Shown piece by piece: positions 3,095 to 60,468 of a stretch of DNA of 64,000 bases. A model generated the notes under the pieces. The model was not told where the DNA came from, ran no database searches, and saw only the letters and a list, made by a program, of their open reading frames with translations. Numbering within the stretch: position 1 is the stretch's first letter; every line of letters begins with the position of its first letter. The stretch spans positions 1 through 64,000 of the forward strand of contig NZ_CAKASL010000003.1 of NCBI RefSeq assembly GCF_916858655.1. Direction: 5' to 3'. Origin of the DNA: Aeromicrobium sp. Leaf350 (GTDB lineage Bacteria > Actinomycetota > Actinomycetes > Propionibacteriales > Nocardioidaceae). Made by a program: the position numbers and the translations under genes.

Positions 3095-3682
3095 TCAGGC
3101 GTGACGGCCGATCAGCCGACGTGCGCCGTAGGCGGCGCCCGACAGGCCGACCGCGCTGCCGCTCAGCAGCAGCCAGGCGAGACCGTTGCCGTCGTCGACC
3201 GGACCGAGGCCCGCATCGACACGCGTGGGGGTCGCGACCTCCGGCACCTCCTGCGCCGTCTCGGTCTCGACCGTCTCGACCGTGCCCGGGTCGACGGTCG
3301 TCGGCGTGCCGGCGCTCAGGTCCGACGGGCCCTGCTGGGGGCCGGTGCCACCGCAGCCTCCGTGGGTCGGGCACGGGGCGGGGTTGGTGATGTCGCCGGG
3401 ACCCTGCGGCACGTCCGGGTTCACGACCGGGCCGGGCTCGGGCTGGGCGATGTCGCCGGGACCCTGGGGGACGTTCGGCTCGACCGGACCGGGCTGCGGC
3501 TGGGCGATGTCGCCGGGGCCGGGCTGGACCGGGCCGGGCTGCGGCTGCCCGAGGGTCGTGGGGCCGAAGGGGATCGGGTCGGCCGAGGCCGCTCCCGCGC
3601 CGAGGGCGAGTCCGCCGACGGTGAGGGCGGCGGCGAGGACCAGGCCCCGGATGGCGGTGGCGGCGGTGGTGGTGTTCTTCAT
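3095..3682 (-). CDS. Secreted Pro-rich repeat protein with C-terminal membrane anchor
   Basis: 195 aa from ATG 3682, chosen because AAGGAG lies 8 nt upstream and a classic signal peptide follows at once (positive start, hydrophobic core about 10-29, cleavage near ASA-DP). The mature part (35-100) contains imperfect repeats of PGDI-(A/T)-(Q/N)-P-x-PGPV. A Cys pair (C104, C110) sits in a Gly-rich stretch, and a Thr/Val/Glu-rich spacer follows. The end has a membrane helix (about 167-186) and a basic tail (RR..GR), like a sorting signal, but there is no LPxTG or LAxTG before the helix. The gene lies next to a class F sortase gene and shares its promoter element, so it is a plausible substrate or partner; this is inference. 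No known family was recognised. Confidence 0.85.
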   Translation of the reverse strand: MKNTTTAATAIRGLVLAAALTVGGLALGAGAASADPIPFGPTTLGQPQPGPVQPGPGDIAQPQPGPVEPNVPQGPGDIAQPEPGPVVNPDVPQGPGDITNPAPCPTHGGCGGTGPQQGPSDLSAGTPTTVDPGTVETVETETAQEVPEVATPTRVDAGLGPVDDGNGLAWLLLSGSAVGLSGAAYGARRLIGRHA

Positions 3683-3740
3683 GGTGGTGCTCCTTCGTGG
3701 TGGTGGTGCTGAACGGGGTGGGTCGTGCGTGTCTGTCGGA

Positions 3741-3771
3741 GGTAGGAGCAGGGGCCGAAGGATCTCTTGCA
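3741..3771 (-). promoter_or_regulatory. Putative ECF-sigma promoter, copy A (Pro-rich protein gene)
   Basis: Read on the minus strand this is TGCAAGA, 15 nt, GCTCCTACC. The same two blocks with identical 15-nt spacing occur at 4456-4486 and 6199-6229, each upstream of a gene in the same direction. A CGAAAA tract lies just upstream, as in copy C. The -10-like block ends 58 nt before the start codon. The two-block form with fixed spacing is what an ECF sigma factor promoter looks like, and the neighbouring fused sigma factor is the obvious candidate to read it. Confidence 0.8.
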
Positions 3772-3808
3772 CTTTTCGCGAGAGGTTTTTTCGGCGCCGC
3801 TCTCGGCC

Positions 3809-4426
3809 CTAGACCAGGTGCGCGTAGACGACGGTGTTGTCGGGATAGCGGCCGGTCTGCGGGCTACGGGTGCCCCCGCAGGTGATGAGGCGCAGGAGAG
3901 GCCGCCGCGTGTCTCCCCAGATGCGCTCGACCGGCAGCGCTTCCTTCGGGGTCTGCGTCACGTGGTCGACGACGAACGTCGAGGTGCCGGCGGTGTGCTG
4001 CACCGACACGACGTCCCCCGGTCGCAGCTCGCCGAGCCGCCAGAAGACGTCAGGTCCGCCTCGGCCGGCGACGTGGGCCACCAGCACGGCACCGCCGCGC
4101 TCGCCGGGACGCGGGCCGGGCGAGTACCACGCGGCGTGACCGGTGGCGGGGGTCTGCATCGCACCGTCGGGCTTCAGGCCGACCGCGCCGAGCGGCACGT
4201 CCACCCCGATCGCGTCGATGCGGACCGCCAGCGGATCGCCGCCGGGCAGCGGATCGGCGAGGCCCGGCTTCGGCTCGGGCATGTCGACCGGGGCCGGCGC
4301 CGCGATCGGCGGCGTGGCCGGCACGTCGGCGCCGAGGTCGTCGACCCCGAGAGACGCCAGCGCGGTGAGGGCCAGGGTGAGGAGCAGGTGACGGCGCAGT
4401 GAGGGGCGGGTCGAGGACACGGACAT
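3809..4426 (-). CDS. Class F sortase
   Basis: 205 aa. The start is ATG 4426, with GGAGG 7 nt upstream. A short N-terminal membrane/signal segment (about 11-27) is followed by a Pro-rich linker and the sortase domain (about 65-205). Catalytic residues are visible: H118 in LVAHVAG, C183 in LITCGG and R193 in TGRYPDN. The compact size and the VRIDAIGV..PLGAVGL entry strand fit class F (actinobacterial) sortases, transpeptidases that attach secreted proteins to the cell wall. It shares the TGCAAGA-N15-GCTCCTACC promoter element with both neighbours, so it is probably induced with the secreted Pro-rich protein. The natural sorting signal cannot be read from this locus; the only canonical LPxTG-type protein in the window is 28 kb away. 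Confidence 0.93.
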   Translation of the reverse strand: MSVSSTRPSLRRHLLLTLALTALASLGVDDLGADVPATPPIAAPAPVDMPEPKPGLADPLPGGDPLAVRIDAIGVDVPLGAVGLKPDGAMQTPATGHAAWYSPGPRPGERGGAVLVAHVAGRGGPDVFWRLGELRPGDVVSVQHTAGTSTFVVDHVTQTPKEALPVERIWGDTRRPLLRLITCGGTRSPQTGRYPDNTVVYAHLV

Positions 4427-4455
4427 GGTGGAACCTCCGGTGGTGGGTGATCACC

Positions 4456-4486
4456 GGTAGGAGCACCGAGGCGCTCAGGTCTTGCA
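4456..4486 (-). promoter_or_regulatory. Putative ECF-sigma promoter, copy B (class F sortase gene)
   Basis: TGCAAGA, 15 nt, GCTCCTACC on the minus strand, identical in both blocks and in spacing to copies at 3741 and 6199. It is preceded by GCAAAC rather than CGAAAA. The -10-like block ends 29 nt before the sortase ATG, which leaves a short leader carrying the GGAGG ribosome site. Confidence 0.8.
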
Positions 4487-4504
4487 GTTTGCGTGCGGGA
4501 CGGA

Positions 4505-6127
4505 TCAGCCGGGGCAGGGGAGCACGTCGATGCTCGACGCGGGGCCGGTGGTCGTGCTGCCGCTCGCGTCCACGGCCGTCGCGCGGAAGGTCACGGTGCC
4601 GCCGACCGGGAACGGACCCATCGAGCCGGACCAGGTGGTGCCGGATCGCGACAGGGTCGTCGACCCGGATCCGCTGGGACCGCTCCAGTCCAGCCGCACC
4701 GAGGCGGTGTCGGTGTCGTCGACACCGACGCTCACCGGCACGGGTGCGTTGCAGGCACCGAAGACCGCCGTGGGTGCGCCGACGACGGGTGGTCGGTCCT
4801 GCTCGAGAGTGACACGCACCGACGCCGAGCCCTCCGCCCACCTCACCGAGACGTCGGCGGTGGAGACGCCCTCGGCGACCCCGCTGCGGTCGACCTGCAC
4901 CGAGACCTCCCGTGACGAGCCTGCCGGGACCCGGACCGGCCGCGTCACCGTCAGCCACGGGGCGTTCTCGGAGAGGGTGACGTCGACGGCGGCGTCACCG
5001 TCGTTGATCAAGCGGAACGACCCGGTGGAGGCGCCCTGTCCCAGGTCGACGCCGGTGGTCGAGAGCGTGATCCCCCCAGCGGCGACCACGACGTCGGTCG
5101 GCGTCGCGCTCGGCGCCGTCGCGGTCGGGTCCGGGGCCGGGGCGACGCTGGTCGGCGCTGCGGTCGGGGCCGGGTCGTCGGCGCCGCCCTCCTCGGCACC
5201 GCCGGGCCACACCAGGGCCACGACGATCGCGACCGCCGCGAGCAGGCCCGCGCCGATCAGCACCCGGGGCGTGGTGACGGGCCGGGACGGGACGGCGAGC
5301 CCCTCGCTCGCCCCTCCCAGCGTCTGTACCGGCACGTCAGCGGCGACCAGGTGGGTCTCGGTGACGCGGTCGCGCAGCGCGACGGGCGCCGCGAGCAGCG
5401 GCACACCCGCGAGGAGAGCCCACGGGCTGGCCACGATGCGGCGGCGCTCGCCGCAGACGTCGCACTGGTCGACGTGGCGGGCGACGCGCTTGCGGATCAG
5501 GGGCGAGAAGCGGCCGTCCCACTCGACCAGCAGGGTGTCGAGCTCGTCGCAGTCGTCGCGGCCGAGGCGCGCGACCAGCAGGGCGCCGAGGGACCGCTCG
5601 ACCTGGTCGCGCAGACGGCTCAGGAGGACGTAGGCCTGCGACGTGCTGACTCCCATCGCCTCGCCGAGCTCGGCCCCCTCCAGGCCGTGGCGCAGGTGCA
5701 GGTTCAAGATGCTCTGGTCACGCTCGGCCAGGCCGGCGGAGGCGGCCCACACGAGCTCCTGCAGCGAGCTCAGCTCGGCCGCCTGCTCGGGTGTCCGGTC
5801 GCCGTCAGCCATCTCGACCAGCTGCTCGTCGCCGCCGAAGGCGACCCGTTTCCGGGAGCGAAGGCGGCGCAGGCACTCGCTGCGCACGACGGCGTACAGC
5901 CAGGGGCGGAGACGTTCGGGGTCGCGCAGCTGGCCGAGCCGTTCCGCGACCAGGACGAACGAGTCCGCGACGGCGTCCTCCGCCTCCTCGCGGTGCCGCA
6001 GCATCGAGTGCGCGTAGTCGTAGAGGCGGTCGCCGTAGCGGTCGTAGACACCGGCGAACGCGACCTTGTCGCCGGCCAGGATGCCGGCGACGAGCTCGGG
6101 GTCCGAGGGTCCGTCGACCGCGGTCAT
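4505..6127 (-). CDS. ECF sigma factor fused to zinc finger, transmembrane helix and extracellular Ig-like domains
   Basis: 540 aa in one uninterrupted frame. Residues 20-95 are sigma region 2 and 117-180 are region 4 with its helix-turn-helix (ELGEAMGVSTSQAYVLLSRL). A short linker leads to an anti-sigma-type zinc motif H218-x3-C222-x2-C225. A single membrane helix follows (about 289-308), then an Ala/Pro/Thr-rich stalk (310-345) and two beta-rich Ig/BACON-like modules (about 346-440 and 447-540). The DNA-binding half would be cytoplasmic and the Ig half outside, so the sigma factor is membrane-tethered and would need proteolytic release or local action. ECF groups with fused C-terminal anti-sigma-like and membrane parts are known in actinobacteria. 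Two start regions are visible: a leaderless-type TAGGAT 6 nt before ATG, and the shared element at 6199-6229, implying autoregulation. Confidence 0.93.
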   Translation of the reverse strand: MTAVDGPSDPELVAGILAGDKVAFAGVYDRYGDRLYDYAHSMLRHREEAEDAVADSFVLVAERLGQLRDPERLRPWLYAVVRSECLRRLRSRKRVAFGGDEQLVEMADGDRTPEQAAELSSLQELVWAASAGLAERDQSILNLHLRHGLEGAELGEAMGVSTSQAYVLLSRLRDQVERSLGALLVARLGRDDCDELDTLLVEWDGRFSPLIRKRVARHVDQCDVCGERRRIVASPWALLAGVPLLAAPVALRDRVTETHLVAADVPVQTLGGASEGLAVPSRPVTTPRVLIGAGLLAAVAIVVALVWPGGAEEGGADDPAPTAAPTSVAPAPDPTATAPSATPTDVVVAAGGITLSTTGVDLGQGASTGSFRLINDGDAAVDVTLSENAPWLTVTRPVRVPAGSSREVSVQVDRSGVAEGVSTADVSVRWAEGSASVRVTLEQDRPPVVGAPTAVFGACNAPVPVSVGVDDTDTASVRLDWSGPSGSGSTTLSRSGTTWSGSMGPFPVGGTVTFRATAVDASGSTTTGPASSIDVLPCPG

Positions 6128-6133
6128 GGCCGG

Positions 6134-6139
6134 ATCCTA
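6134..6139 (-). promoter_or_regulatory. Leaderless-type -10 element of the fused sigma factor gene
   Basis: TAGGAT on the minus strand ends exactly 6 nt before the ATG at 6127, so transcription would start at or next to the A of the start codon. No Shine-Dalgarno motif is visible in this position. It may supply basal expression, with the stronger element further upstream used for autoinduction. Confidence 0.5.
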
Positions 6140-6198
6140 GGGCCGCACGGGCGTCCGTGGTCCACATCGCGCATCTCCGCTCCTCGTCCGTCGTCGGA

Positions 6199-6229
6199 GG
6201 TAGGAGCCGGGAGGCGCGCGGATCTTGCA
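6199..6229 (-). promoter_or_regulatory. Putative ECF-sigma promoter, copy C (autoregulation of the fused sigma gene)
   Basis: TGCAAGA, 15 nt, GCTCCTACC on the minus strand, preceded by CGAAAAC. It is the third copy of the element and lies 71 nt upstream of the sigma factor start codon, between that gene and the MFS gene end at 6239. A self-recognised promoter is typical of ECF sigma factors. Confidence 0.8.
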
Positions 6230-58745: not shown

Positions 58746-59479
58746 CCGCGCGTCGCAGCAGCGGGGTGGTCGCCGTCCTCCTCGCGGTCGCCGTCGCGGC
58801 GGGCCTCACGGTCTCGCCCGCACTGGCGCAGAACGGCGACACCGACGTCTCCGTCACGATCCCGCCGGCGCCGACGTCGTCGCCGACCACGCCGCCACTG
58901 CCCGCCGCGCCCGTCGTGCCGACGCCGCCGGGCGGGTCTGACACCGGTGGCGGCTTCAGCGGCGGCTCGGGCTCCGGCAGCGGCTCGGCCGCCGTGCCGG
59001 ACGCTCCCGTGGCCCCCGAGCCCGCCTCGGGCGAGCCCGCGATCGGCAGCAAGCCCGGTCGGGGCGACACGCTCGTCCTCGACCGCGACTTCGTGATGCC
59101 CGGCGAGACCGTCGTCGCGCGGGCGACCGGCCTGACCGCGGGCGAGATGGCGCAGATGGTCCTCTTCTCCGACCCCGTGCTGCTCAGCAACGAGGCGGTC
59201 GACGCCGAGGGCTCCTACCGGGCCGAGATCGTGATCCCGGAGGACACCGAGCCCGGGCGCCACACCCTGCAGCTCACCGGCTGGTCGAGCAGCAAGATCT
59301 TCGTCGGCGTCCTCGTCGTCGGTGATCCGGCGTCCGACGAGGACGAGGCCGGGGGCGGGTTCCCGCTCTGGATCTGGTGGATCGTCGCCGCGCTGCTGAT
59401 CCTCGGTCTCGCCGGGATCGGCATCCGTGCCGCGATCTCGGTCCGCCGCAACGCCCTGCCGACGGGAGCGCACCCGTGA
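58742..59479 (+). CDS. Single-pass surface protein of the Pst-WxL operon
   Basis: 245 aa, ATG 58742 overlapping the DUF916 stop. Signal peptide (about 6-30, ending ALA-QN), a Pro/Gly/Ser-rich stalk (40-105), one compact beta domain (about 110-190: [40 protein letters not shown]), a membrane helix (about 207-229) and a short basic tail. The beta domain resembles the Ig-like repeats of cell-wall proteins. It is probably a structural part of the same surface complex. No named family was recognised. Confidence 0.8.
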
Positions 59480-60468
59480 CGCTGATCGACGACCCGCGGT
59501 CCGACGCGCCCACGCAGGCCGTCCCGCCGGCGGCGCCCGGAACGGTGCCGCCGGTCATGCCGCCGATCCCGCCGCGCCTGCGCGGACGACGTCCCGGTCG
59601 CCCGCCGGTGACCCGCGCCCCACGGGCCGGTCGCTGGTGGGGCGGCGCCGCGCTGCTGTCGCTGTCGCTCCTGCTGCTGGGCTTCATCACCCACGTCACG
59701 GTCTTCAGCTCGATCCAGCACGACCGAGCCCAGTCGCTGCAGTACCAGGAGCTCCGCTCGAGCCTGGCCAAGGCCGAGACGCCGGTGGGCCAGCTCGACC
59801 TCGACAAGAAGCTCGTCGGGGCCGGGACCCCCGTGGCGCTGCTGCAGATCCCGCGGCTCGGCATCGAGGAGGTCGTGGGCGAGGGGACGACCTCCGACCT
59901 GCTGCGGTCCGGTCCCGGCCACCAGCGCTCCAGCGTCATGCCGGGCCAGAACGGCACGGCGGTCATCCTGGGTCGACAGACGACCTACGGCGCCCCCTTC
60001 GCCGACCTCGAGCGGCTCGTCCCGGGCGACACGATCACCGTGGTCACGGGCCAGGGCACGCACACCTTCACGGTCTCCGGCCTCCGGCGAGACGGCGACG
60101 ACAAGCTGCCGATCCCCGGCGACGGCGAGGGGCGGCTCGAGCTCGTCACGGCCGACGGCCTGCCCCTGTTCCCCAGCGGCGCCCTGCACGTCGACGCCGA
60201 GCTGACCTCCCCGACGGTCGACACCCCGACCCGCGTGATGTCGGTCGAGGCGCTCCCGCCCGAGGAGCGCGCGATGGGTCACGACGGCTCTGCCTGGTTC
60301 ACGGCCTTCTTCGCCGGCACGTTCCTGCTGGCGGCGATCGCCGGCATGGCCGCGCTGTGGCTGCGGTGGCGGCGTGGTCCGGCCTGGATCATCGGCGTCC
60401 CGGTCGTGGTCGCCCTCGCCGCCGTGACGGCCGACTCCGTCATGAACGCCCTGCCGAATCTCCTGTGA
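59476..60468 (+). CDS. Sortase-fold membrane protein lacking catalytic His, Cys and Arg
   Basis: 330 aa from GTG 59476, overlapping the previous stop. N-terminal Pro/Arg-rich cytoplasmic part, a membrane helix (54-76), the sortase-like domain (about 115-245) and two C-terminal helices (about 272-297 and 303-322). The domain aligns by eye with class E sortases: [37 protein letters not shown], then [16 protein letters not shown] where active enzymes have [18 protein letters not shown] where active enzymes have a TC pair; and PSGALHV where an Arg is expected. There is no Cys anywhere in the protein. So it cannot be a transpeptidase and is probably a scaffold or binding module of the WxL/Pst complex. 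Confidence 0.85.

Follow-up and report, generated by a model that had tools for sequence, protein, structure and literature searches.

We analysed a 64,000-nucleotide stretch of Aeromicrobium sp. Leaf350 (contig NZ_CAKASL010000003.1, positions 1 to 64,000; hereafter the window), in which three adjoining genes, coding for an extracytoplasmic function (ECF) sigma factor fused to membrane and external parts, a class F-like sortase and a secreted proline-rich (Pro-rich) protein, are each preceded by the same promoter-like site, TGCAAGA-N15-GCTCCTACC. Judged from sequence, the whole is probably an autoregulated regulon, in which the sigma factor would be released by proteolysis, activate its own gene together with the sortase and the Pro-rich protein, and so supply the sortase with a substrate sorted at a PxR[IV]DAG motif. 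Fused sigma/anti-sigma factors are already known, and the regulon as a new form of that kind is well supported by the comparisons below. A regulon of this composition had been proposed in a first-pass annotation of the window, and the proposal is supported by the uniqueness of the site in the genome, the identical distribution of the sigma and Pro-rich genes among relatives, sites at every family gene checked and at distant paralogues, and conservation beyond the genus.

The first-pass annotation had placed three copies of the motif at the positions in Table 1, with perfect blocks and equal spacing, each upstream of a gene on the same strand, and had judged the arrangement too regular for chance; our searches agree on every point. 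The window contains exactly three copies, all on the minus strand with zero mismatches, and their distances from the start codons, taken with gaps of 78 and 126 nt between the three genes, indicate that each gene apparently has its own promoter. From the base composition of the window 7.5e-4 exact copies per genome are expected, and 100 shuffles of the window gave a mean of 0.25 matches at up to three mismatches, the largest number being 2. The motif is not scattered over the complete genome (3,501,460 bases in three contigs): the 24 matches comprised the 3 exact copies and 21 with three mismatches, with no copy at one or two mismatches elsewhere in this genome, and a backward control pattern gave 143 matches compared with these 24.

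Table 1. Sites and genes of the proposed regulon in the window. Distances run from the last base of the pattern, counted from CTCCTAC, to the ATG.
Feature	Position	Strand	Remarks
Promoter-like site 1 (TGCAAGA-N15-GCTCCTACC)	6199..6229	-	72 nt before sigma factor ATG at 6127
Promoter-like site 2	4456..4486	-	30 nt before sortase ATG at 4426
Promoter-like site 3	3741..3771	-	59 nt before Pro-rich ATG at 3682
ECF sigma factor, 540 amino acids	4505..6127	-	ECF regions 2 and 4 (about 1-180), fused membrane and external parts
Class F-like sortase, 205 amino acids	3809..4426	-	H118, C183, N197
Secreted Pro-rich protein, 195 amino acids	3095..3682	-	Proposed sortase substrate

Among 49 Aeromicrobium genomes, profiles of the sigma factor (E ≤ 1e-20) and of the Pro-rich protein (E ≤ 0.001) each detected the identical 14, a coincidence of 1 in 6.8e11 if the genomes were independent, which they are not. 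A relaxed pattern, with its consensus derived from the loci of 11 of the same genomes, had 42 zero-mismatch matches in the 49 (28 with N15, 14 with N16), of which 41 lie within the 14 sigma-bearing genomes; the single match in the other 35 falls, by eye, inside a coding frame. The search of related genomes also agreed with the proposed regulon, as 38 of the 42 matches precede sigma, sortase or Pro-rich genes. Of the remaining four, those in G067 and G064 were rejected as targets, lying in a frame that reads by eye like glutamate synthase; the one in G020 precedes a secreted SGNH-hydrolase-like protein and the one in G026 a secreted repeat protein (see below), and neither of these two sites has an A-rich block. 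A further member in the Leaf350 genome was rejected as well: the sole relaxed N16 match with one mismatch (contig C3, 18440) is antisense to a gene that resembles, by eye, an SGNH hydrolase.

All genes in a table of 46 family members (14 sigma, 10 sortase, 22 Pro-rich) had a site with at most two mismatches within 260 nt, 38 of them without mismatch. The sortases of G013 and G063, with uncertain start codons and outside that table, had sites with two and one mismatches, which brings the total to 48 of 48 genes checked; random 260-nt segments taken from the same loci away from the sites reached two mismatches in 2 of 600 cases, and none had fewer. The sigma gene itself is preceded by a site with at most two mismatches in all 14 genomes that carry it (its start in G063 being estimated). 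Less circular evidence comes from G063, G067 and G069, from distant sites and from loci outside the genus. G067 and G069 were picked up by the motif, which led in turn to a sigma gene next to it. In G063 the sole two N16 matches with one mismatch lie one before the Pro-rich gene and one between the sigma and sortase genes. Sites distant from the sigma locus precede Pro-rich paralogues in G020, G023, G026, G035 and G069 (one each) and G024 (two), and the G013 locus holds two Pro-rich genes, both with sites; expansion of the regulon seems to come from added copies of one surface protein. A weak Pro-rich match in G069 (C2:518724), which ends in LPNTG and has a best site with four mismatches, was rejected and stays outside the 48.

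These comparisons also refine the motif described for the window. In majority letters the conserved unit is AAAA[GA][TC]TG[CT]AAG[AG]-N15/16-[GA]CTCC[TC]AC, longer than the TGCAAGA-N15 pattern, and relatives have a spacer of 15 (28 genes) or 16 (18 genes). Over the 46 genes the G and the AG of the left block and the CTC and AC of the right block are invariant, A-rich sequence lies just upstream, YGA is frequent a few bases downstream, and the site stands on the strand of the gene, 30-171 nt before its start. Its asymmetry, orientation, distance and a spacer varying by one base lead us to infer that the site may act as a -35/-10 sigma promoter. As a separate observation, G026 (L126) has a perfect relaxed site without an A-rich block near 5332 (-). 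The gene that starts 55 nt further on codes for a secreted, 236-residue repeat protein, which resembles calcium-binding repeat proteins and is a possible extra target in that one genome.

The order of parts in the sigma protein is consistent with a factor held at the membrane. Behind the ECF regions come an HxxxCxxC motif at 218-225, which we take to be a zinc motif of the ZAS type, hydrophobic residues from 231 to 251, a transmembrane segment at about 284-307 (hydropathy peak 2.76 at 289-307), a Pro/Thr-rich linker and an external part. The sigma superfamily model TIGR02937 scored 75.8 bits, above its curated cut-off of 42.9, and Pfam Sigma70_r2 scored 43.6 bits (cut-off 24); Sigma70_r4_2 remained below its cut-off (18.1 against 25.7 bits), yet its match lies at the expected position, 125-173. 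In a PDB sequence search with the sigma part the matches were ECF sigma factors only. The zinc-motif residues H218, C222 and C225 are invariant in all 16 aligned sigma sequences (alignment A3), while Pfam zinc-finger models had no match to the protein at E ≤ 1. In the external part, Cys459 is kept in nearly all and Cys538 in all of the 16 sequences, and Pfam gave only weak, sub-threshold matches to BACON_2 and an OAA-type lectin (SBD).

For the sortase, the class F model NF033748 is by far the best sortase model (E 5.8e-44; 149.4 bits, below the curated cut-off of 166), and the class E model scores 21.6 bits. An alignment by eye assigns its catalytic residues (Table 1) with Asn where other classes have Arg, as reported for actinobacterial class F sortases (PMC6998099). 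The protein thus shares His, Cys and Asn with class F sortases and differs from them in its sub-cut-off score, its own clade and its place within a sigma regulon. The sigma-linked sortases form a single clade with support 100/100 (15 rows, L114 and L142 being the same gene), and a PDB sequence search with the sortase had no match at E ≤ 0.01. Elsewhere in the window, at 59377-60468 (+), lies a sortase-like protein with LVTAD where TLxTC is expected and no catalytic Cys, possibly a sortase-fold protein without transpeptidase activity; its gene directly precedes one that, by eye, codes for a pstB-like phosphate ABC ATPase.

The Pro-rich gene is listed mechanically from GTG 3772, a start that would overlap the motif; we took the gene to run from 3682 to 3095. 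Its product begins with what resembles a signal peptide and continues with a Pro-rich body and PTRVDAG, in which RVDAG begins at residue 154; it ends in a hydrophobic stretch, below the 1.6 hydropathy threshold and read from alignment A1, and a basic tail. In A1, R[IV]DAG occurs in 16 of 19 Pro-rich rows and the hydrophobic stretch in all, so the family has the general layout of a sorting signal, with a C-terminal motif followed by a hydrophobic stretch and basic residues. This tail, PxR[IV]DAG ahead of a transmembrane segment and a basic end, looks like a variant form of the GVDTG sorting signal, for which NCBIfam already has a model, GVDTG_CTERM (NF058571). The two share the layout, and the GVDTG signal is likewise found here on class F sortase neighbours, but the model does not recognise the RIDAG variant: none of the 19 A1 proteins matches it at E ≤ 1. 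Among the A1 rows, one matches SCO1860_LAETG (6.3e-5) and one an LPXTG anchor model (0.048).

Sortase and RIDAG are consistently associated. A sigma-linked sortase is present in 12 of the 14 sigma genomes, and each of the 12 encodes one or more Pro-rich proteins with RIDAG; the other two, G021 and G024, have no sortase at the locus and between them four Pro-rich proteins, none with RIDAG. The class F model matches these two genomes no more than weakly elsewhere (best 3.4e-8 and 3.6e-6), and in the sigma tree, at modest support, they are not sisters; they may serve as natural controls. In addition, a protein of a different kind carrying VPRRIDAG, which GVDTG_CTERM does not match either, adjoins a further class F-like sortase at L154, in a genome that lacks the sigma gene.

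Phylum-wide, 30 class F loci contained 24 open reading frames (ORFs) with such a tail, of which 19 fit a strict pattern of the P-x-G-x-[VIA]-x-[TAG]-G type and 5 were near forms. A first control of 132 loci had 10 of 34 tailed ORFs fitting, and is imperfect in that nine of these are Aeromicrobium RIDAG proteins, the tenth being an antisense frame; a second control of 17 loci had no tailed ORF. In 29 Aeromicrobium class F loci, 14 of 19 tailed ORFs fit, including one antisense (L142), one doubtful (L155) and several from the sigma locus. Of 10 proteins compared with GVDTG_CTERM, seven matched at E ≤ 0.5, two of them above the cut-off, and L249, with a similar-looking tail, had no match. A general class F tail motif was dropped as a novelty in view of the existing model. 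Separately, at the sigma locus of Gordonia desulfuricans (L183) an ORF has a tail that comes near the GVDTG type, with VRFDTGGG, a hydrophobic stretch and then RRRR.

Outside the genus, 42 sigma loci were scored for an upstream site against 200 mononucleotide shuffles each, and in eight the site beat every shuffle. Seven are nearer relatives (Nocardioides marmoriginsengisoli, N. marmorisolisilvae, a Nocardioides metagenome-assembled genome (MAG), a Nocardioidaceae MAG, a Propionibacteriales MAG, Pseudolysinimonas yzui and Actinophytocola oryzae), and the eighth, a Frankiaceae MAG, has a weaker site than these. In the Propionibacteriales MAG all three genes are present, each has its site, and the Pro-rich tail carries TPTRVDAG. 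Next to the sigma gene of N. marmorisolisilvae and of the Nocardioidaceae MAG we saw no sortase and no Pro-rich gene. In Pseudolysinimonas and Actinophytocola the sigma factor is accompanied by a Pro-rich protein that follows a site.

Among 38 distant loci a changed form of the site (such as AAAAGTGTCCG...CTCCTAC) was found at 10 places in eight, all mycobacterial, whereas none of 20 shuffles gave more than 1; four of the 10 places were already known when the pattern was drawn up. A Pro-rich gene some 1 kb away from the sigma gene has this form upstream in at least four loci (L184, L191, L196, L203), and the mycobacterial sigma relatives share 44-50% identity in the best segment. From the sigma plus Pro-rich loci of Pseudolysinimonas, Actinophytocola and mycobacteria, the core of the system seems to be the sigma factor and the Pro-rich protein, with the sortase an addition. 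By short sequence patterns, with gene names assigned by us, one or more of a HIT, a pgsA and a diiron-type gene adjoin the sigma gene in seven Aeromicrobium loci, a HIT gene does so in L171, L173 and L179 outside the genus, and thrS in two of these; the patterns are absent from the first 20 kb of the window and from five loci of the genus (L111-L114, L122). Such shared neighbours suggest descent from a common ancestor with losses. Among the other loci, L196 (Mycobacterium sp. OAS707) combines, in about 6 kb, two adjoining fused sigma genes with three occurrences of the changed site, and in L190 and L195 (Micromonospora, Plantactinospora) the sigma relative appears in the C-terminal part of very long open frames (1600 and 1681 amino acids, with uncertain start codons).

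The proposed mechanism may be outlined as follows. The three sites would be promoters read by the sigma factor encoded beside them. This factor would sit in the membrane with its DNA-reading domains inside, held by the fused ZAS-type segment, and its C-terminal part outside; by analogy with known fused ECF/anti-sigma proteins, an outside signal would probably lead to proteolytic release of the sigma domain. The freed factor would raise expression of its own gene, the class F-like sortase and the secreted Pro-rich protein, which the sortase would cut at PxR[IV]DAG, the presumed cleavage point, and join to the cell wall, where it may form a coat. The first-pass annotation had left the switch as one of envelope stress or surface display; nothing here supports envelope stress.

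Several observations weigh against this autoregulated regulon as described. Zero-mismatch counts in the genus are partly circular because the consensus came from 11 of the same genomes, and the G063 sigma site is weak, with two mismatches and no A-rich block. At 34 of the 42 outside loci no site before the sigma gene beats all shuffles, so autoregulation is not universal, and a universal autoregulatory site was ruled out. No Pfam family reached its cut-off in the external part of the sigma protein, and the sortase falls short of the class F cut-off. The sortase/RIDAG association (Fisher 0.011, kinship ignored) reflects two losses at most, one of the two sortase-less genomes (G021) is 88% complete, a G069 Pro-rich protein with a perfect site (L131) lacks RIDAG though its genome has a sortase, and the L154 sortase with its RIDAG neighbour falls outside the sigma-linked clade.

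Since the link between site and sigma factor is drawn from sequence comparison, and most distant relatives tested have no site at the sigma gene, the sites might instead be operators of another regulator or promoters of another sigma factor, with the fused sigma factor merely a target. The site is, however, asymmetric and two-block, lies on the strand of the gene at promoter distance and has a spacer of 15 or 16 that fits -35/-10 elements; moreover, zero-mismatch matches before genes are confined to sigma-bearing genomes, a distribution that a separate regulator would have to share, and we regard this explanation as quite improbable. Identical blocks three times inside 2.5 kb of one genome could also reflect chance or the recent copying and pasting of one intergenic repeat, which is hardly credible when the blocks, unlike the spacers and flanks, are conserved, also between different Actinomycetes families and orders, and when so few exact copies are expected per genome.

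A somewhat stronger contender, although still unlikely, concerns the output: the Pro-rich protein could be a tail-anchored membrane protein, with RIDAG a trace of ancestry and the sortase serving other proteins. The regulated Pro-rich proteins without RIDAG (G021, G024, L131) do keep the hydrophobic stretch and basic tail, and no RIDAG and no sortase were found within the Pseudolysinimonas and Actinophytocola loci. This explanation has to contend with the contrast between the 12 sortase genomes and the two sortase-less ones, with the GVDTG-type signals beside class F sortases phylum-wide, and with the VPRRIDAG of an otherwise different protein at L154.

The first-pass annotation knew of no named system of this composition. 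This holds for the regulon: no description of it or of the RIDAG variant was found in the literature, nothing on a sigma-controlled class F sortase was seen in titles and abstract openings, and on sortase sorting domains no paper among the matches listed names GVDTG. It does not hold for the kind of sigma factor, as in ECF48, ECF52 and ECF53 a zinc finger and a transmembrane segment are joined to an ECF sigma factor (PMC8999054, PMC5826349). Compared by description only, ECF52 SCO4117 of Streptomyces coelicolor similarly joins an ECF domain, a zinc finger, a transmembrane segment and a Pro-rich C-terminal extension in one chain, and positive autoregulation has been proposed for ECF52 (PMC5826349). 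In contrast, SCO4117 influences development and antibiotics and ends in a carbohydrate-binding module, for which the Aeromicrobium protein has no Pfam match above cut-off; the motif proposed for it, CSGYN-17-SRHA, shows by eye no resemblance to the TGCAAGA-N15 site, and a sortase is unmentioned in the available main text (PMC5826349). Sigma matches in eight large genomes of the class, seven of one genus, had 28-36% identity over part of the sigma domain, except for one 40% match in G273. For ECF48 the example given in PMC8999054 comes from Mycolicibacterium, and mycobacterial relatives exist for the family studied here too; the likeness to ECF48 and ECF53 is judged from domain features, as no promoter or targets are stated for them in the available part of PMC8999054. 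IutY (ECF243) of Pseudomonas putida also unites a sigma factor with an anti-sigma part in the membrane and is freed by regulated proteolysis, but it serves Gram-negative iron-starvation surface signalling through the proteases Prc and RseP (PMC8999054).

These findings bear on two groups of proteins. The physiological role of class F sortases has been termed unknown (PMC13251363 of 2026, PMC6998099 of 2020), and the locus offers them a candidate regulator, substrate and recognition motif in three adjoining genes. In an Actinoplanes with four class F sortases, two neighbour proteins have a signal peptide, a transmembrane segment and a basic tail without a known pentapeptide (PMC13251363), a gap that GVDTG/RIDAG-like motifs could fill, these proteins being compared by description only. 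For fused sigma factors, which have few or disputed target sites in the available parts of PMC8999054 and PMC5826349, the locus yields a candidate promoter. More tentatively, and as an extension that we would not quite expect to hold in full, a transmembrane sigma switch made of a single protein, with its own promoter class, may operate across several actinobacterial orders with a Pro-rich coat as its core output, to which Aeromicrobium and Nocardioides would have recruited a dedicated class F-like sortase with PxR[IV]DAG, forming one self-amplifying module. If true, the sigma factor may in turn monitor the anchored coat through its external part.

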